From IMG/VR virus record IMGVR_UViG_3300008267_010268, positions 1 to 26,187 of that record: 26,187 nt of DNA. One strand, given 5' to 3'. Positions 5,587-22,779 of this stretch are shown here, piece after piece; positions within the stretch are counted from its first letter, which is position 1, and every line of letters starts with the position of its first letter. This DNA comes from a virus. The notes under the pieces were generated by a model. That model made no database searches, was not told where the DNA came from, and worked only from the letters and a program-made list of their open reading frames with translations. The position numbers and the translations under genes were made by a program.

Positions 5587-5946
5587 ATGAGAAAAATAGT
5601 AAGACTTACAGAATCAGATTTAGTAAGATTGGTTAAAAGGGTTATAAATGAACAGGATGGAAAAAGTGACCCTTTGGTAAATGATGTAGACCCAGTTAGT
5701 TATTTAAAAAATAAATTGGGTTATAGAGTTGAGGACACAAGAAATGCGAGCGGATTTACAACACTTTACAATGGTAATACCCCCGACACAAGTAAAAAAG
5801 TTATTTCAATATATCACCCTATTGGTGCAAAAAATAATTATTATATATCAGTAAGAAAAAATGGAGTTGATAAAAAGTTTGATGGAGGTAGTTTAGGGTT
5901 TGGAAAAAACCTTTTTGATAAAGTTATAAATTACGTTAATATATAA
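5587..5946 (+). CDS. Small protein with candidate capsid-targeting N-terminus, 119 aa
   Basis: Residues 1-23 (starting MRKIVRLTESDL and ending VINEQ) match residues 1-23 of the protein at 8399-8776 in 13 positions, with conservative changes at most others. The rest of the two proteins is unrelated. The segment looks like an amphipathic helix and ends in I-N-E followed by Gln, the type of site cut by T4-like prohead proteases; the same I-N-E is found at residue 60 of the major capsid protein here. By analogy with T4 internal proteins, this suggests a removable signal that carries the protein into the prohead. The remaining 96 residues (YLKNKLGYRVEDTRN, IYHPIGAKNNYYISV) are unrecognised. It has a late-type motif upstream and a terminator right after the stop. 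Confidence 0.8.
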   Translation: MRKIVRLTESDLVRLVKRVINEQDGKSDPLVNDVDPVSYLKNKLGYRVEDTRNASGFTTLYNGNTPDTSKKVISIYHPIGAKNNYYISVRKNGVDKKFDGGSLGFGKNLFDKVINYVNI

Positions 5947-8398: not shown

Positions 8399-8776
8399 AT
8401 GGGAAAAGTTATAAGATTGTCAGAATCCGATTTGGAAAAAATAGTACAAAAAGTAATTGAGGAACAAGAAACCCAAGAAGGTTTAGGTGACATATACCAA
8501 GGTTTAAAGGGTGTTTGGAGAGGAGAAGGTTATGATTATTTTAAATACTTAAGTTCTTTAAGAGGTATTACTCGTAAATTAAAAAAATTAGATGAACCTA
8601 ATGTTAGAGTCATGGGCGATTTATATCAACTCAGGACTAAAGTGGATACATCTAAAATGCCAACGGATAAAAAAAGTAATTTACTTAATACTATCGACGC
8701 TGCTATGGACCACTTCAAATCTTATTCAACTCTGATTAATAAAATTGAACAACTATCAACACAAAAATTAGCATAA
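8399..8776 (+). CDS. Small helical protein with candidate capsid-targeting N-terminus, 125 aa
   Basis: Residues 1-23 (MGKVIRLSESDLEKIV... ending VIEEQ) are the second copy of the N-terminal sequence seen at 5587-5946; I-E-E before Gln23 fits the IxE rule of T4-type prohead proteases. The remaining residues are a separate, mostly helical sequence (LKGVWRGEGYDYFKYL, LYQLRTKVDTSKMP, NTIDAAMDHFKSYSTLINKI) with no recognised family. The pattern of one shared signal on unrelated bodies is what T4 internal proteins show. It is preceded by a late-type motif and ends at a terminator shared with the convergent Clp gene. Confidence 0.8.
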   Translation: MGKVIRLSESDLEKIVQKVIEEQETQEGLGDIYQGLKGVWRGEGYDYFKYLSSLRGITRKLKKLDEPNVRVMGDLYQLRTKVDTSKMPTDKKSNLLNTIDAAMDHFKSYSTLINKIEQLSTQKLA

Positions 8777-8804
8777 AAAAAAGGGGATTTATTCCCCTTT
8801 TTTC
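8777..8804. terminator. Bidirectional terminator between convergent genes
   Basis: Stem GGGGA/TCCCC with loop TTTAT, flanked by A6 and T6. It overlaps the stop codon of the Clp gene (8789-8791) and can end transcripts from both sides. Confidence 0.85.
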
Positions 8805-10834
8805 TTTCTTGGTTTTTTAACCGTAATAGGTTTATTTTCAATAATATTTATTTCTTTATTGTCTACAGATAGTCGATATTCTCCATTTTCGATAATATTG
8901 CCCTTTAGAACTTCTTCAGAAATATAGTCTTCAATTTTATCTTGAATGGCTCTCTTAAGAGGCCTAGCTCCAAACTGCTCGTCAAAACCAACTTCAGATA
9001 TTAGTTCAACAACATTTTCTTCGTAAGAAATATTGTATTTTAAATTTACTAAACGCTTACAAAGTTTATCAAGTTCAAGTTTAACAATTTGTTGTATGTC
9101 TTCTTTTTTCAAATTGTTAAATACAATAACCTCATCAATACGATTTAAAAATTCAGGAGCGAAAAACTTTTGAAGTTCTTTTTTAAGAACATCTCTCTTA
9201 TATTCTTCCTCAATATAAGAGTTAACACTCTTAAAACCAATTCCAGCACCGAACTCTTGTAATTTTTTGGCTCCAATATTCGAGGTCATAATAATGACAC
9301 AATTTTTAAAGTTGATTTTTCTTCCCAATCCATCGGTTACGTGACCATCGTCTAACACCTGAAGTAAGGTTGAAAAAATATCCTTATTGGCTTTTTCAAT
9401 CTCATCAAATAATATAACCGAATATGGTTTATTCTTAACTTGTTCTGTCAACTGCCCGCCTTCATCATAACCAACATATCCTGGAGGAGCTCCAATCAAT
9501 CGAGATATTGTATGTTTCTCTTGGAATTCGGACATATCAATTCTGATAAGATTATCTTCACTACCAAAAATTTGTTTTGCAAGTTCTTTTGCTAACAATG
9601 TTTTTCCAATACCTGTAGAACCTAAGAATATGAATGAACCAATTGGTTTGTTTGGGTCCTTAATCCCTAATCTATTTCTTCTAATTGATTTGGCGATTTT
9701 AGATACTGCGGAATCCTGACCAATAACCTTTCCTGAAAGTTCCTCCTCTAATGACGCCAATTTTTTGGTTTCATCTGAATTTAATTTAGAGATAGGTATT
9801 TTGGTCATATTTGATACCGTTTCATAAACTAAATCAGTGGTTATTTCCTTTTTTTGTAATATCAAATCATCATCGAATTTCTTTTTCTCATCCTCTAGTT
9901 TCCCCAAAATTTTCTTTTCCTTATCCCTAAGGTTTGCCGCTTCTTCATAGTTTTGTTTCTTAACAACTTCTATTTTTTGTTGTTTTATTTCGGCGGCTTG
10001 TTGTTTTAGTTGGTCAATTACTTCGGGTACTTTAATCTCAACTTGACTTCTGGCACCCACTTCGTCGATAATGTCGAAAGCCTTATCAGGGAATTCTCTA
10101 TCTGTAATATATCGCTCAGCCAAATCAACGCATAGGGTTAAAATTTCGTCAGAATATTTAACTTTGTGATAATTTTCATACTTATCCTTGATATTTTTCA
10201 AAATAAGAAATGTCTCATGTTTTGTTGCAGAATCAACAATAACTTTTTGAAATCTCCTTTCTAAAGCCCCATCCTTCTCAAAATTCTTTCTATACTCATC
10301 CAACGTCGTTGCTCCGACACATTGAATCTCCCCACGGGCAAGTGCTGGTTTAAATATGTTGGACGCATCTAACGAACCTGATGAATTTCCGGCACCAACT
10401 ATTGTATGAATTTCATCAATAAAAACAATAATATTTGGTGACGATTGTAATTCTTCGATGATAACCTTCATTCTTTCTTCAAACTGACCACGATACTTAG
10501 TTCCCGCAACAATCGATGTCATATCTAAAGATACAATTCTTTTGTCCATAAGATTTCTAGGGCAATCTCCATTGAAAATTTTAATGGCTAATCCCTCAAC
10601 AATAGCGGTTTTACCACAACCTGGTTCACCAATGATGATTGGATTGTTCTTTTTTCTTCTCGCCAAAATCTGAGCGATTCTTGTTATCTCTCTTTCTCTA
10701 CCAATAACAGGGTCTAATTTACCTTCCTCAGCTAGTTTTATTAAATCTCTACTGAAATTATCAAGGACTGGAGTTGACGAATCTCCTTTTGATTTGCTTT
10801 TGCTCTTTCCGTCATTATCCATTGGTTCGGTCAT
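8789..10834 (-). CDS. ClpC-like AAA+ unfoldase lacking the N-domain, 681 aa
   Basis: A two-ring ATPase that unfolds proteins and feeds them to a protease. D1 has Walker A GEPGCGKT (69-76), pore loop AGTKYRGQFEER (110-121) and Walker B FIDE (138-141). A ClpC-type UVR middle segment (YEEAANLRDKEKK) lies around 290-325. D2 has Walker A GSTGIGKT (405-412), pore loop GYVGYDEGG (452-460), Walker B FDE (476-478) and sensor region TSNIGA. GIGF at 531-534 matches the IGF/VGF loop that docks on ClpP. The usual 150-residue N-domain, which binds adaptors such as MecA, is replaced by about 25 polar Ser/Lys residues; normal ClpC is about 800-850 aa. No ClpP is present in the window, so host ClpP would be the partner. 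The gene runs opposite to its neighbours. Confidence 0.93.
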   Translation of the reverse strand: MTEPMDNDGKSKSKSKGDSSTPVLDNFSRDLIKLAEEGKLDPVIGREREITRIAQILARRKKNNPIIIGEPGCGKTAIVEGLAIKIFNGDCPRNLMDKRIVSLDMTSIVAGTKYRGQFEERMKVIIEELQSSPNIIVFIDEIHTIVGAGNSSGSLDASNIFKPALARGEIQCVGATTLDEYRKNFEKDGALERRFQKVIVDSATKHETFLILKNIKDKYENYHKVKYSDEILTLCVDLAERYITDREFPDKAFDIIDEVGARSQVEIKVPEVIDQLKQQAAEIKQQKIEVVKKQNYEEAANLRDKEKKILGKLEDEKKKFDDDLILQKKEITTDLVYETVSNMTKIPISKLNSDETKKLASLEEELSGKVIGQDSAVSKIAKSIRRNRLGIKDPNKPIGSFIFLGSTGIGKTLLAKELAKQIFGSEDNLIRIDMSEFQEKHTISRLIGAPPGYVGYDEGGQLTEQVKNKPYSVILFDEIEKANKDIFSTLLQVLDDGHVTDGLGRKINFKNCVIIMTSNIGAKKLQEFGAGIGFKSVNSYIEEEYKRDVLKKELQKFFAPEFLNRIDEVIVFNNLKKEDIQQIVKLELDKLCKRLVNLKYNISYEENVVELISEVGFDEQFGARPLKRAIQDKIEDYISEEVLKGNIIENGEYRLSVDNKEINIIENKPITVKKPRKKKGE

Positions 10835-16959: not shown

Positions 16960-16967
16960 TATTTATA
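16960..16967 (+). promoter_or_regulatory. Candidate late promoter TATTTATA for the terminase
   Basis: TATTTATATACAAA lies directly after the terminator. The terminase reading frame is already open at this point, so the promoter overlaps it. Confidence 0.5.
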
Positions 16968-16974
16968 TACAAAT

Positions 16975-18675
16975 ATACGTACCTATTTACAAACTTATGA
17001 CAATACCGTTTCGAAATATGTTCCCTTAGAACTATTTCCTGACCAAATTTCGTTACTTGATGACTATGAAAACTTTAACGAAAATATTGCATTAAAATAT
17101 CGACAAGCAGGTGTGTCCACAGTAACCGCTGCGTGGGTATCAAAAAAACTTGCGTTTGCCAAGAAAAATAAACCTGAAAAAATCCTAATTATTGCCAACA
17201 AACTTGACACTTCACAAGAAATGGCAAATAAAATAAGGGCCTTTATAACTCAATGGCCTGATTGGGTGGGAGCTGGATTTTCAGCAGAAAAAGATTCTCA
17301 AAAACATTACAAATTAAATAATGGTTGTGAGGTAAAGGCCGTTGCAACATCAAAGGACGCACTTCGTGGATTCACACCAACAATATTAATATTTGACGAG
17401 GCGGCATTTATCGATGCTGATTCTGATTTTTGGGCAGCTTGTATGGCGTCCCTATCTACGGGTGGTAAGGTAATCGTTGTGTCAACACCTAACGGATATG
17501 ACCCAATTTATTATGAAATTTATGACCAAGCATTAAGAAATATGAATGATTTCAAGATTTCAGAGATGTATTGGTTTAGAGACCCAAGATATACTAGAGA
17601 TTTATATCTTGTTAAGACAAAGGATATTATTCATTATTTGTTAAACAAAGAAGAATATAGTCATGATGATATTATAAGTTGGGAAAGTATCCCTTTCGAT
17701 GATAGAAACTATGAAGAACTTAAACTGATTATGGATACGGGATACAAACCATGTTCAAATTGGTTTGAGGGGATGGTTAAGAAATTAAAATACGACAAAC
17801 GTAAAGTTTCTCAGGAGTTGGAATGTAACTTTTTGGGTTCTGGTGATAACGTATTTGACTCAAATTTGTTACAAAGAGTTAGAGAAAATTATATAAGAGA
17901 ACCCCAAAATAAAATGATGGGTAACGCTCTTTGGATTTGGAAAGAACCTGTTGTCGGTCACAAATATGTTATGGGAGTTGACGTTAGTAGGGGAGACAGT
18001 GAAGACTTTAGTTCTTTTCAAATTATAGATTTTGATGAGAGAGAACAAGTTGCCGAGTACGTCGGTAAATTACCTCCTGATACAATGGCTGAGGTTTGTT
18101 ATAAGTGGGCTAACATGTATTCTTGTTTTGTTGTAATTGATATTACCGGTGGTATGGGTGTTTCTACTGCAAGAAAAATGCAAGAAATAGGATTTAAAAA
18201 TCTATATGTTGACGGTGTTGATGTTGCAAATAAATGGAAATGGGACCCAAAAGCTGCCGAAAAAATACCAGGTATTAATTTTAATAATAAAAGAGTTCAA
18301 ATTATTGCTTCGTTTGAGGAAGTCATGAGACATGATTTCAAAATTTACAGTAGTAGATTATTCAATGAAATGAACACATTCGTTTATATTAACGGAAGAC
18401 CTGACCACCAAAAAGGGCACCACGATGACTTAATTATGTCAATCGCAATGGCAACATATGTTGCAGAATCATCGTTTAGTCAGTTAACTAAAGTTACAGA
18501 ACAAACTAAAGCCATGATTGAATCTTGGTCGGTTAGTAATAATGAAAATGTTACTAATCAACTTGCGTTTAATCCTGTTATTCCTAATTTTAATGAAAGA
18601 ATGAATCAAAACAGTCAACAAAATGTAACCAAAGAAGATTATATGAAATACGGTTGGCTATTTGGTGGTAGATAG
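16975..18675 (+). CDS. Large terminase subunit (gp17-like), N-terminus unresolved
   Basis: The DNA-packaging motor: ATPase plus nuclease. Family sequence begins at about 16975 (IRTYLQTYDNTVSKYVP) and runs without a stop to 18675, but the first ordinary start codon in frame is a GTG at 17113, which falls inside the Walker A segment (KYRQAGVST), so it cannot be the true start of an active protein. An ATA at 16975 is the only near-cognate start close to the homology edge. Walker B is ILIFDEAAFID, motif III is VVSTPNG. The nuclease has VMGVDVSRGDSEDF, VVIDITGG and GHHDDLIMSIAM. The Walker A lysine is replaced by Val, a form I believe is normal for this clade. T4 gp17 has about 160 residues before Walker A against about 45 here. 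Confidence 0.9.
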   Translation: MRTYLQTYDNTVSKYVPLELFPDQISLLDDYENFNENIALKYRQAGVSTVTAAWVSKKLAFAKKNKPEKILIIANKLDTSQEMANKIRAFITQWPDWVGAGFSAEKDSQKHYKLNNGCEVKAVATSKDALRGFTPTILIFDEAAFIDADSDFWAACMASLSTGGKVIVVSTPNGYDPIYYEIYDQALRNMNDFKISEMYWFRDPRYTRDLYLVKTKDIIHYLLNKEEYSHDDIISWESIPFDDRNYEELKLIMDTGYKPCSNWFEGMVKKLKYDKRKVSQELECNFLGSGDNVFDSNLLQRVRENYIREPQNKMMGNALWIWKEPVVGHKYVMGVDVSRGDSEDFSSFQIIDFDEREQVAEYVGKLPPDTMAEVCYKWANMYSCFVVIDITGGMGVSTARKMQEIGFKNLYVDGVDVANKWKWDPKAAEKIPGINFNNKRVQIIASFEEVMRHDFKIYSSRLFNEMNTFVYINGRPDHQKGHHDDLIMSIAMATYVAESSFSQLTKVTEQTKAMIESWSVSNNENVTNQLAFNPVIPNFNERMNQNSQQNVTKEDYMKYGWLFGGR

Positions 18676-18711: not shown

Positions 18712-20535
18712 ATGGAAAATAATAAACAGTTAACCGTATGGCAAAGATTAACAAGAGCGTTTGGACCGAACGCATTACTTAATCAAGATTACCCAACATA
18801 TAAGTTTGACAAACAAGAACTATTAAAGACTACCTCAAAACAGGAATATGAAAAAGAGTTATTACAGGCTCAACAAACATATTATCTTGCAAATCAGTGG
18901 ACTAAAATTGAAAGTAATCTTTATACCCAAGCGGTATATTACGAACCAACAAGATTGGCATCATTTTATGATTACGAATCAATGGAATATACGCCAGAGA
19001 TTTCTGCTGCCTTGGACATATACGGAGAAGAATCCACTACAGTTGACCAAAATGGTTATATGTTGCAGATTTATTCTGAGTCAAAAAGAATTAAAGGTAT
19101 TTTAACTGATTTATTTAATAATGTATTAGATATTAACACAAACTTACCAATGTGGACAAGAAACACTTGTAAGTATGGTGATAATTTTGTGTATTTAAAA
19201 TTGGATTCTGATAAGGGTGTTGTTGGATGTATGCAACTTCCAAATATTGAAATTGAACGTTTGGAAAGAGGTATGCCGGCAAAAAGTCAAAATGTTGAGG
19301 ACCCAAAAGAAAATAGAGGTTTAAGATTTAAATGGAAAGCAAAAGACATGGAGTTTAACTCGTGGGAGATAGCTCACTTTAGATTAATGGGCGACGATAG
19401 AAAACTTCCTTATGGTACTTCTATGTTAGAAAAAGCTCGTCGCATTTGGAAACAATTATTGTTGTCAGAAGATGCAATGTTGATATATAGAACATCAAGA
19501 GCCCCTGAAAGAAGAGTATTTAAAGTATTTGTTGGTAACATGGATGATAAAGATGTTGAGGCATATGTACAACGTGTGGCTAACAAATTTAAAAGAAGTC
19601 AAGTTGTAGATAGTCAAACAGGTAATGTTGATTTGAGATTTAATCAAATGGCGGTCGACCAAGATTATTTTATCCCTGTTCGTGACCCGGCTCAATCATC
19701 TCCAATTGAAACATTAGACGGAGCTAAAAACCTGTCTGAAATTGCGGATATTGAATACATCCAAAAGAAATTATTGACCGCACTTCGTGTACCTAAAGCG
19801 TTTTTAGGATTTGAGGAAGTTGTTGGTGAAGGTAAAAATTTATCACTACAGGATATTCGTTTTGCTCGAACAATTAACAGAATTCAAAAGTGTATGATTG
19901 CGGAAATGAACAAAATCGCAATTATTCATCTTTTTTTACTAGGTTTTGAGGACGAATTAACTAATTTCACTTTAGGATTAACTAACCCATCAACCCAAGC
20001 CGATTTACTTAAAATTGATGTTTGGAAAGAAAAGATGTTATTATACAAAGACGCAGTTGCGGCAATCGAAGGTATTGCTCCTGTATCGGTTTCTTGGGCT
20101 AAGAAACATATTTTAGGTTTCTCTGACGAAGAAATTAAACTTGATTTACAACAACAAAGAATTGAAAAAGCGGTAGGTGCCGAGTTAACAAACACTGCAA
20201 CAATTATTGCTCATACAGGTGTATTTGATAATGTGGATAAATTATATGGAGGTCCGGGTACAGGGGCAACCGCATCATCTGAAGCGACTCCTCCACCACC
20301 TCCGGGAGGTGATATGGGAGGATTAGGACCTGAACCTGGAGGGGCCGAATTACCGCCTCCACCCCCACCAGGAGGTGAAGCCGGAATTACTCCCGAATCA
20401 GAAAATAGAGATAATCTAAATATTTTATTAGAATCGGACTCTGTGTTTGAAGAAGATTCTTACATAGATTTATCTAAAGCAAGAAATTCATTAGGTCAAA
20501 TGGAATCTCAACTAGAAAAACTTCTGAGAGATTGA
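18712..20535 (+). CDS. Portal protein (gp20-like), 607 aa
   Basis: Forms the dodecameric ring at one head vertex through which DNA enters and leaves. Recognised by blocks shared with T4 gp20: YTPEISAALDIYGEEST, GTSMLEKARRIWKQLLL, SRAPERRVFKVFVGNM, then the DYFIPVRDPAQSSPIETLDG and EIADIEYIQKKLLTALRVPK region, followed by a long helical barrel part. The C-terminal 90 residues have two Pro-Gly clusters (TPPPPPGGDMGG and ELPPPPPPGGEAG) and a short helical end (ARNSLGQMESQLEKLL), longer and more Pro-rich than T4. The LLES before an acidic tail could be a protease site. It directly follows the terminase; T4 has genes 18 and 19 between them. Confidence 0.95.
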   Translation: MENNKQLTVWQRLTRAFGPNALLNQDYPTYKFDKQELLKTTSKQEYEKELLQAQQTYYLANQWTKIESNLYTQAVYYEPTRLASFYDYESMEYTPEISAALDIYGEESTTVDQNGYMLQIYSESKRIKGILTDLFNNVLDINTNLPMWTRNTCKYGDNFVYLKLDSDKGVVGCMQLPNIEIERLERGMPAKSQNVEDPKENRGLRFKWKAKDMEFNSWEIAHFRLMGDDRKLPYGTSMLEKARRIWKQLLLSEDAMLIYRTSRAPERRVFKVFVGNMDDKDVEAYVQRVANKFKRSQVVDSQTGNVDLRFNQMAVDQDYFIPVRDPAQSSPIETLDGAKNLSEIADIEYIQKKLLTALRVPKAFLGFEEVVGEGKNLSLQDIRFARTINRIQKCMIAEMNKIAIIHLFLLGFEDELTNFTLGLTNPSTQADLLKIDVWKEKMLLYKDAVAAIEGIAPVSVSWAKKHILGFSDEEIKLDLQQQRIEKAVGAELTNTATIIAHTGVFDNVDKLYGGPGTGATASSEATPPPPPGGDMGGLGPEPGGAELPPPPPPGGEAGITPESENRDNLNILLESDSVFEEDSYIDLSKARNSLGQMESQLEKLLRD

Positions 20536-20543
20536 TATTTATA
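20536..20543 (+). promoter_or_regulatory. Candidate late promoter TATTTATA
   Basis: ATATTTATAATAAAAAA, overlapping the end of the portal stop region and 12 bases before the ATG at 20556. Confidence 0.5.
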
Positions 20544-20555
20544 ATAAAAAAGAAA

Positions 20556-21278
20556 ATGATTAAGTTCGGAAATATTAAATCAAAGATTGAAGAAAAGTTA
20601 CTTGAATCTTATTCTAACAATACTTTTAAATCTGAAATGAAGACTTTTAAGTCTTTGGTTTTAGGTAATAAAAATATTAGTAAACTATTTTATCTTTACG
20701 ATGAGATGAGTTCTAATAAAGGTTTAAATGAATCTTTGGTTAATGACTACATTTATGAGTGTATTACAGTTTATGAAAATACCGTAAATAAAATCGACGA
20801 ATCTACAATCTCTAAATTGAAATCTTGGGTTTCAAATGTTAAGTGTGACAACAAATATGAAAATATTGACAATTTATTTTCAACTGATGTTTTAACAATT
20901 GAATCTCGTTTAAAGAGTAAAAAAATTATTTCTGAAAATTTAATTAAATCACCTGAAACCAAAAAGACAGAAACTGTTAATTTACCAATATCAACAATGG
21001 TTAATATTGCAAATAAAACATTTTCAAATTATGTCGAAAATTTAAATGAATCTGATAGACAGGAATTAATTAAATTTTTAAAGACAGAGGATTCTGAATT
21101 AGAACCACAATTTGAGTCAATTAAAGATGAGGTTAAATCAAAATTAACTTCATTAAAAGAAAACACGACAGATACTGACACTTTAAATAGAGTTGAGGAA
21201 ACAATAACAAAAGTTGATTCTGAGACGTATAACAAATTGTCATTCTTCAAATTAAAAGGATTAAACGAAAGCCTTTAA
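20556..21278 (+). CDS. Probable prohead core protein in gp67/68 position, 240 aa
   Basis: I chose the ATG at 20556 (MIKFGNIKSKIEEKLLES); an in-frame TTG at 20532 lies within the portal stop region. The protein is Lys/Glu/Asn/Ser-rich and mostly helical, with several L-x-E/I-x-E sites (LLES, GLNES, NLNES, SLKEN) and a C-terminal GLNESL. It has no recognised family. Its place between portal and prohead protease is where T4 has core genes 67 and 68, whose products are cut by gp21; the high number of possible cut sites fits this. The stop overlaps the stop of the convergent bS21 gene by two bases. Confidence 0.72.
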   Translation: MIKFGNIKSKIEEKLLESYSNNTFKSEMKTFKSLVLGNKNISKLFYLYDEMSSNKGLNESLVNDYIYECITVYENTVNKIDESTISKLKSWVSNVKCDNKYENIDNLFSTDVLTIESRLKSKKIISENLIKSPETKKTETVNLPISTMVNIANKTFSNYVENLNESDRQELIKFLKTEDSELEPQFESIKDEVKSKLTSLKENTTDTDTLNRVEETITKVDSETYNKLSFFKLKGLNESL

Positions 21279-21466
21279 TTTTCGGAATCTTTCTTTTTTT
21301 GAACGTATTTGGCTTTTTTAAGAATATCTCTCTTTTTAACAGATTTTTTGGTATATTCTTTTCTATTAACCAACTCAGCGGTTTGTTTTGTTCTAATAAC
21401 CTTGCTCTTGAGAATTTTAAGTGCCTTCTCAATGTTCGTATGTTTATCTAACTTAACAATTATCAT
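21275..21466 (-). CDS. rpsU: Ribosomal protein bS21 homologue, 63 aa
   Basis: Full-length bS21 of the small ribosomal subunit: MIIVKLDKHTNIEKALKIL, a basic helix, then NRKEYTKKSVKKRDILKKAKY and a Lys-rich end. Spacing and residues match bacterial bS21 throughout (MIIV start, ENIxxALK, KPSVKRRE-type block). Tyr54 in KAKYVQ is kept; in Bacteroidota ribosomes bS21 with bS18 and bS6 hides the anti-Shine-Dalgarno end of 16S rRNA and this tyrosine is reported to contact it. A phage copy may replace host bS21 and shift which messages are translated. It stands alone on the minus strand inside the head operon. A TATATTTG box lies about 45 bases before the start; no strong Shine-Dalgarno sequence is present, unlike host rpsU in some Flavobacteriia. 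Confidence 0.92.
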   Translation of the reverse strand: MIIVKLDKHTNIEKALKILKSKVIRTKQTAELVNRKEYTKKSVKKRDILKKAKYVQKKKDSEN

Positions 21467-21510
21467 ATATAAGAAATATCTCTAAATGAATTTTTTTTTG
21501 ACTATCGATA

Positions 21511-21518
21511 CAAATATA
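21511..21518 (-). promoter_or_regulatory. Bacteroidota-type -7 box for bS21
   Basis: TATATTTG on the minus strand with GTTTA as a weak upstream box about 18-20 bases away. The leader would be about 40 nt. Confidence 0.55.
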
Positions 21519-21560
21519 CTTATTTTTTTTAAAAATAAACTTGTATAATATGAAAAGTTG

Positions 21561-22031
21561 ATGAAAAAGGGGAAGACCTCACAAATTCAGGGGTTCAAAA
21601 CAGCCAAGGTAATCTATGGCACAGTTGATTCGGTTAATTTCAAATCAGTATACCTCAACATTCAAACATGGGTTGACCCCAAAATAAACTCAGAAAATTG
21701 GAATAGGATAGTTTTAAACTTAAGTAGGGCAATAAAACATTCAGTTTTAGAATCATTAGATAAAATTTTATTTGATAACAAATTTATAGTTGATTTAGAT
21801 TTAAGGTCTAGTGGTTTACAAAAAGGAAAAAAGTCATTTTTAAATTTAGAAATAAATTTTTACTTATCAGGTTCAGAAACGGATTTCAAGTCAAGGAGAA
21901 TTAAAGATGCTTTAAAAAAAGTATGTAAACAAGTATTCCAAGATAATTTTACAAATAACGAATATTTTAAATTTCACTTAACCAAAACTAAAAAAACTAA
22001 GGTAGAAAAAACAGAAACCGATAATCTTTAA
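21561..22031 (+). CDS. Unknown protein next to prohead protease, 156 aa
   Basis: ATG at 21561 chosen (MKKGKTSQIQGF); the TTG one codon upstream is unlikely. Basic at both ends, with a central region of strands and helices: VIYGTVDSVNFKSVYLNIQT, then NWNRIVLNLSRAIKHSVLES, then FLNLEINFYLSG. No signal peptide, membrane span or motif that I recognise. It is divergent from bS21, with 94 bases between starts, and 22 bases before the protease gene. An assembly function is plausible only from position. Confidence 0.7.
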   Translation: MKKGKTSQIQGFKTAKVIYGTVDSVNFKSVYLNIQTWVDPKINSENWNRIVLNLSRAIKHSVLESLDKILFDNKFIVDLDLRSSGLQKGKKSFLNLEINFYLSGSETDFKSRRIKDALKKVCKQVFQDNFTNNEYFKFHLTKTKKTKVEKTETDNL

Positions 22032-22053: not shown

Positions 22054-22779
22054 ATGAATCATCAAATCATACAACCTGGTCAAATCGGAAAGGGAATACT
22101 TGTTGAATACGACGCAGGGTATATATCACCAACCGAACAACGTAATGCGGATTTAATACGTGAATCTAAGGGAATGCTTGACCACTCAAAACCATTTGAG
22201 TTCTATGCGGTATTACAAAAGTATAATACCCCAAATAGAAACGGAAGAGTATATCCTGAGAAAGTATTAAAGAGAGAAGCGGATAATTATAAAAAAATGA
22301 TTGACAAGGGTATTGCGTTATCTGAACTTAACCACCCTGAATCTTCACTTGTTGATTTAGATAGAGTTTCACATGCAATAACTGAAATATGGTGGGAAGG
22401 ACCTGTTTTAATGGGTAAATTAAAACTATTAACTTCACCAGGGTTTCATGAAAGAGGAATTGTTTCAACTAAGGGAGACCAAGCCGCAAATCTGTTAAGA
22501 CAAGGTGTTACTTTAGGTATTTCATCTCGTGGAGTTGGGTCTTTAAAAAAGGTTGGAGAACATAATGAAGTTCAGAATGATTTTGAAATAATTTGTTTTG
22601 ACCTTGTGTGGTCACCATCTACACCTGGCGCTTATTTATTCTTAGAACCAAATGATAGATTTAATTTTGAAGAAAACTTAGAGGAAGAGAATAAAATGAA
22701 GTCTCAAAGAGTTTCTGATGAAAGTTCAAACAAATCGCTTGACTTAATGAAAAAATTGAACGATTATTTGAAGTACTAA
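22054..22779 (+). CDS. Prohead maturation protease (gp21-like, family S80), 241 aa
   Basis: The protease that digests the scaffold and trims capsid proteins before DNA packaging; in T4 it cuts after Glu in (L/I)-x-E sites. Visible blocks: YNTPNRNGRVYPEKVLKRE, LSELNHPE with catalytic H94, LDRVSHAITEIWW, then GVTLGISSRGVGS with catalytic Ser at 157 or 158, and FDLVWSPSTPGAYL. About 45 acidic and basic residues follow the catalytic part (FNFEENLEEENK), a likely self-cleavage tail. Length is close to T4 gp21 (212). The substrate rule in this phage is inferred to be IxE from the capsid protein. Confidence 0.93.
   Translation: MNHQIIQPGQIGKGILVEYDAGYISPTEQRNADLIRESKGMLDHSKPFEFYAVLQKYNTPNRNGRVYPEKVLKREADNYKKMIDKGIALSELNHPESSLVDLDRVSHAITEIWWEGPVLMGKLKLLTSPGFHERGIVSTKGDQAANLLRQGVTLGISSRGVGSLKKVGEHNEVQNDFEIICFDLVWSPSTPGAYLFLEPNDRFNFEENLEEENKMKSQRVSDESSNKSLDLMKKLNDYLKY

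Follow-up and report, generated by a model that had tools for sequence, protein, structure and literature searches.

The closest described systems are the 47 bS21 phages reported by Chen et al. in 2022 (PMC9723584), with complete genomes of 293-331 kb, which were grouped into clades a-e and for which freshwater Bacteroidetes hosts were predicted. These phages carry the same gene in the same orientation and block as the locus analysed here, with Tyr54 or another aromatic residue in the protein, and the phage bS21 was proposed to substitute into host ribosomes. Metatranscriptomes furthermore showed that bS21 is transcribed late, together with the structural genes (PMC9723584). In F. johnsoniae, the host gene rpsU is preceded by an extended Shine-Dalgarno (SD) sequence and is best translated by ribosomes without bS21, while ribosomes replete with bS21 start more readily on SD-less mRNA and less readily on rpsU mRNA as compared to those with truncated or Y54A bS21 (PMC9976891); the bS21 phages have been discussed in light of this autoregulation by McNutt et al. 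in 2023 (PMC9976891). For a pelagiphage bS21, entry into E. coli ribosomes was demonstrated by Mizuno et al. in 2019 (PMC6375957). The gene and setting described below are hence already known, and our sequence is a further record of the kind published by Chen et al. (PMC9723584). Additions beyond the cited papers are the SD-less leaders of phage bS21 genes, an RTATTTAT motif, and the loss of bS21 with its neighbours kept.

The bS21 Locus and its Head Block

The window, i. e., the whole stretch of DNA analysed, is a 26,187-base IMG/VR virus fragment (Table 1). Its head genes follow the T4-like order terL-portal-protease-scaffold-capsid; portal, prohead protease, capsid, and terminase genes all lie on the plus strand, and bS21 is reversed between two conserved genes of unassigned function. 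A reversed bS21 inside a conserved head block, placed between two unassigned genes in terL-portal-protease-capsid, is the arrangement described for clades a-e of Chen et al. (PMC9723584), and the role proposed for the protein is likewise the same.

Table 1. Features of the bS21 locus and the surrounding head block (window positions).
Feature	Position	Strand	Remarks
Terminase large subunit	17113..18675	+	PF03237, E 2.9e-12; N-terminus incomplete in window contig
T4-like portal protein (gp20)	18712..20535	+	PF07230, E 1.9e-76
Conserved head-block protein, no assigned function	20532..21278	+	convergent with bS21, 4-base overlap
bS21 (rpsU-like) gene	21275..21466	-	63 aa, ATG start; Tyr54 kept; two predicted helices (12-35, 41-62)
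AT-rich divergent intergenic region including bS21 leader	21467..21557	-	no extended SD; weak RTATTTAT variant; inverted repeat
Conserved head-block protein, no assigned function	21561..22031	+	divergent from bS21
Prohead protease (gp21, S77)	22054..22779	+	PF03420, E 9e-25
Major capsid protein (gp23), cut by contig end	24652..26187	+	PF07068, E 5e-44

Some further features of the window are worth mentioning. At the terminase gene, no in-frame start is present in 16960-17113, and about 20 N-terminal residues are missing as compared to the near-identical contigs L002 and L003, so that the window record either carries a short deletion or was misassembled at this point. A ClpA/ClpB-like AAA+ chaperone is encoded at 8789-10834, on the minus strand like bS21; Clp genes were also noted in bS21 phages by Chen et al. 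(PMC9723584). Two small proteins (5587-5946 and 8399-8776) begin with a nearly identical motif (RKIVRLTESDLVRLVKRVINEQ and GKVIRLSESDLEKIVQKVIEEQ, respectively), which may represent a common N-terminal tag.

A Divergent bS21 Protein

In a Pfam profile search, residues 4-56 of the protein matched PF01165 (Ribosomal_S21) with 33 bits (E 4.8e-8), above the gathering cut-off of 27 bits. The score against the NCBIfam equivalog TIGR00030 (21.6 bits) falls below the stricter cut-off of 28.95, as expected for a divergent copy, and a weak Pfam match to RF-1 (E 0.017) was set aside as it lies below the cut-off. Among solved structures, the closest match is bS21 from the F. johnsoniae ribosome (7jil chain z, E 9e-6); the alignment is gap-free over residues 1-61, so that residue 54 is Tyr in both proteins. 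The lengths also agree (63-64 residues), whereas the phage protein differs from this host bS21 (7jil; PMC9976891) by many fixed changes in residues 4-30 and its gene by the missing extended SD. The predicted model comprises the two helices given in Table 1 (pLDDT 84, pTM 0.39) and suggests a small, bS21-like two-helix fold; all 12 matches of this model in a Foldseek search against the PDB were ribosome entries, with weak E-values of 0.4 or more.

Across 27 aligned phage bS21 types, residue 54 is Tyr in 23, His in three, and Phe in one. An aromatic residue at this position, the mark of the Bacteroidota-type bS21 that hides the 16S tail, would place the phage proteins with this type, including a putative stacking on A1534. 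Comparison of the 27 phage proteins with 39 Flavobacteriales bS21 revealed near-complete differences at positions 4, 5, 7-10, 18, 21, 23, 24, 28, and 30. Within residues 4-30, the phage-specific fixed changes are R18→I/L, R21→S/G, F23→V/I, D24→I, and T28→Q, with Ile24 and Gln28 being invariant in the phage set (27/27). Positions 15-17, 20, 22, 26, 40, 42, 46, and 51-52 are common to both groups, as is Tyr/His/Phe at 54. Judging from these alignments, the changes are found mainly in the first half of the protein, in agreement with Chen et al. (PMC9723584).

The preliminary description of this DNA had recognized a bS21 gene inside the head operon of a Bacteroidota phage, running against the head genes and encoding a protein that retains Tyr54 but differs at other residues. 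All three points stand, as also seen by Chen et al. 2022 (PMC9723584): the Pfam match and the T4-like head genes bear out the first, the minus-strand position amid plus-strand head genes, seen in 63 of 65 relatives, the second, and the gap-free 7jil alignment along with the residue comparison, with its many changed positions, the third.

Conservation and Loss of the Gene

A scan of IMG/VR yielded 65 viral contigs with close bS21 relatives. In 63 of these, a reversed bS21 lies between the same two neighbours in the same head block; the two exceptions (L054 and L065) have no head genes in common with the window block. The longest bS21-bearing relative checked is a 203-kb contig, the window itself being a 26-kb fragment. 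The median pairwise dN/dS of bS21 is 0.18 (141 pairs), and the phage gene is hence under purifying selection. In a tree that includes bS21 of Bacteroidota, a single branch (SH-aLRT 98) separates the phage sequences from the others; the phage rows of this tree were chosen by similarity to the query, and its 64 columns resolve little else. A chance ORF at 21275-21466 is ruled out by the 65 viral relatives, a dN/dS far below 1, and the kept position and strand. Phage bS21 is a real and ancient gene under selection, whose place and orientation within the head block are fixed. Among other phages, the huge phages LR756502, LR745206, and LR756501 encode bS21 proteins with 43-50 % identity, but differ in having no common head genes within 8 kb.

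Both bS21 neighbours (20532-21278 and 21561-22031) are found in nearly all bS21-bearing loci and also in bS21-less relatives; two scans with the prohead protease yielded further relatives. Altogether, 34 loci (30 distinct contigs) keep both neighbours and lack bS21, among them a 309-kb contig devoid of bS21 along its entire length. In a portal tree with a single, distant outgroup and several supported nodes between the bS21-less clade and the base, thirteen bS21-less loci form one clade (support 97) nested within bS21-bearing phages. A second case is provided by the bS21-less locus L218, whose flanks can be aligned directly with those of L203, the bS21 ORF being absent (about 11 nt versus 190); the closest relatives of L218 in this set, L203 and L039, both fall outside the thirteen-member clade. 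The nested clade and this separate case together indicate at least two losses of bS21 and, as both neighbours were kept, that it is dispensable and not essential everywhere. Neither neighbour depends on bS21, and a strict coupling of bS21 to one of them was thus rejected. These relatives differ from the data of Chen et al. (PMC9723584), in which all 47 genomes contained bS21 and two outgroups without bS21 also lacked its neighbour. A head block without bS21 is likewise present in the isolated Flavobacterium phage immuto. At L181 (4390-4520) and in its relatives of the bS21-less clade, the site left empty contains a hairpin followed by a T run, which by eye resembles a terminator.

Leader Sequences

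For SD scoring, the 25 nt before each start were paired with UCACCUCCUUUCU, the 16S tail of F. johnsoniae; a strict search for the 16S 3'-end pattern in 20 Flavobacteriales found nothing. The leader of the window bS21 has a pairing energy of -2.9 kcal/mol, and no extended SD was found among the phage bS21 leaders (none below -7.2 kcal/mol), as compared to -17 to -20 kcal/mol for rpsU leaders of F. johnsoniae-type hosts. Going by these energies, the phage gene stands outside the F. johnsoniae-type feedback loop. Many other Flavobacteriales sampled likewise have no SD before rpsU, and the actual phage host may differ from the sampled ones; an SD-less phage leader therefore need not be a phage adaptation. 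The earlier statement that window genes have no SD sites is essentially right: of 25 genes, 24 show a pairing weaker than -4 kcal/mol, and one overlapping gene (14193) reaches -8.9 kcal/mol. Divergent bS21-like genes without an SD were also observed in Aquimarina (L068, L070, L073, L075, and L078), in the three genomes checked (L068, L070, and L073) beside a normal bS21 gene.

Shortly before their start codons, 11 of the 21 window genes carry the motif RTATTTAT (shuffle mean 0.42, with 0/300 shuffles as high), which probably represents a promoter of the phage. Read on the opposite strand, the motif core TATTTATA gives the T4 late box TATAAATA; a T4-type late promoter with TATAAATA itself was rejected, since it is located upstream of 1/21 genes and not enriched. 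In most clades, a variant, (G/A)ATATTT(C/G)T, stands exactly 14 nt before the bS21 start. In the window leader, a weak variant (GATATTTCTT) is located at this same distance from the ATG; its score is unremarkable when taken by itself (p 0.20), and the variant is only suggestive of a functional signal. A conserved A/T-rich inverted repeat is furthermore situated around 21520-21541.

A Possible Role in Host Ribosomes

We consider it probable that phage bS21 replaces or tops up host bS21 late in infection and keeps the ribosomes SD-blind. The protein would then enter host 30S subunits, in place of or beside host bS21, and its Tyr54 would keep the 16S tail tucked away. Such tail-hidden ribosomes would still start on SD-less messages, that is, on those of nearly all phage genes, and the SD-less leader would allow phage bS21 to be made without waiting for bS21-free ribosomes. 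In favour of this reading are family, alignment, fold, synteny, purifying selection, the aromatic residue 54, the SD-less leaders of bS21 and of the window genes, late expression (PMC9723584), and the precedents of F. johnsoniae (PMC9976891) and the pelagiphage (PMC6375957). Of the latter, the bS21 of HTVC008M is also phage-borne and was shown to enter ribosomes, but is of alphaproteobacterial origin with an alphaproteobacterial host (Mizuno et al. 2019, PMC6375957). Replacement or top-up is opposed by the near inactivity of E. coli ribosomes carrying the pelagiphage bS21 (about 5 % active, PMC6375957), by the repeated loss of bS21, and by the SD-less leaders that many Flavobacteriales have as well.

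A conceivable, if less probable, scenario is that phage bS21 merely adds to the supply of a ribosomal protein that is loosely bound, at a time of heavy late translation, and that its sequence changes are neutral. The poor performance of bS21-depleted ribosomes on SD-less mRNA (PMC9976891), late expression (PMC9723584), and the loss of bS21 in some lineages would all fit such a supply, whereas the invariance of Ile24 and Gln28 (27/27) under purifying selection suggests more than drift. Somewhat more doubtful is a specialisation of the ribosomes, in which the changed N-terminal half would lead to a preference for phage messages over those of the host. The phage-specific fixed changes do cluster in residues 4-30, and the changed N-terminal helix was placed by Chen et al. 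where mRNA would presumably bind (PMC9723584); however, no common leader signal known to be read by ribosomes was found, and host and phage messages are both SD-less. An exploitation of the host feedback loop seems rather improbable: phage bS21 would fill the ribosomes and hide the 16S tail, so that the SD-dependent host rpsU would be silenced and the SD-less phage rpsU would escape, shifting the pool to the phage version without a protease.

The preliminary description had furthermore assigned bS21 to a host-type promoter and, in consequence, to expression at another time than the head genes. The sequence TATATTTG at 21518 (minus strand) indeed fits TAnnTTTG, the Bacteroidota -7 box consensus. 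However, the window contains 28 copies of TAnnTTTG on its minus strand and 30 on its plus strand, the string is not enriched upstream of genes (1/21 versus 0.75 in shuffles), and in an alignment of 19 leaders the copy at 21518 has no counterpart in other clades. A host-type promoter as driver of bS21 was hence rejected. The published metatranscriptomes, in which bS21 is transcribed late with the structural genes (PMC9723584), speak against separate timing, and the RTATTTAT variant at bS21 argues in the same direction. Expression from a host promoter, be it early or separately timed, is thus very unlikely. A role outside the ribosome, for example in RNA binding or in the virion, might be imagined for so small and strongly basic a protein encoded in the head block, and packaging was raised as a possibility by Chen et al. 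(PMC9723584), but it is very unlikely indeed given that Tyr54 and most of the conserved bS21 positions are retained and the predicted fold is bS21-like.

With phage bS21, nature provides a test case for the question of whether the swap of one protein allows a virus to retune ribosomes. The Bacteroidota case is the best defined, since bS21 there controls how accessible the 16S tail is as well as how much bS21 is made, and the SD-less phage leaders and bS21-less sister phages provide ready comparisons for this question.
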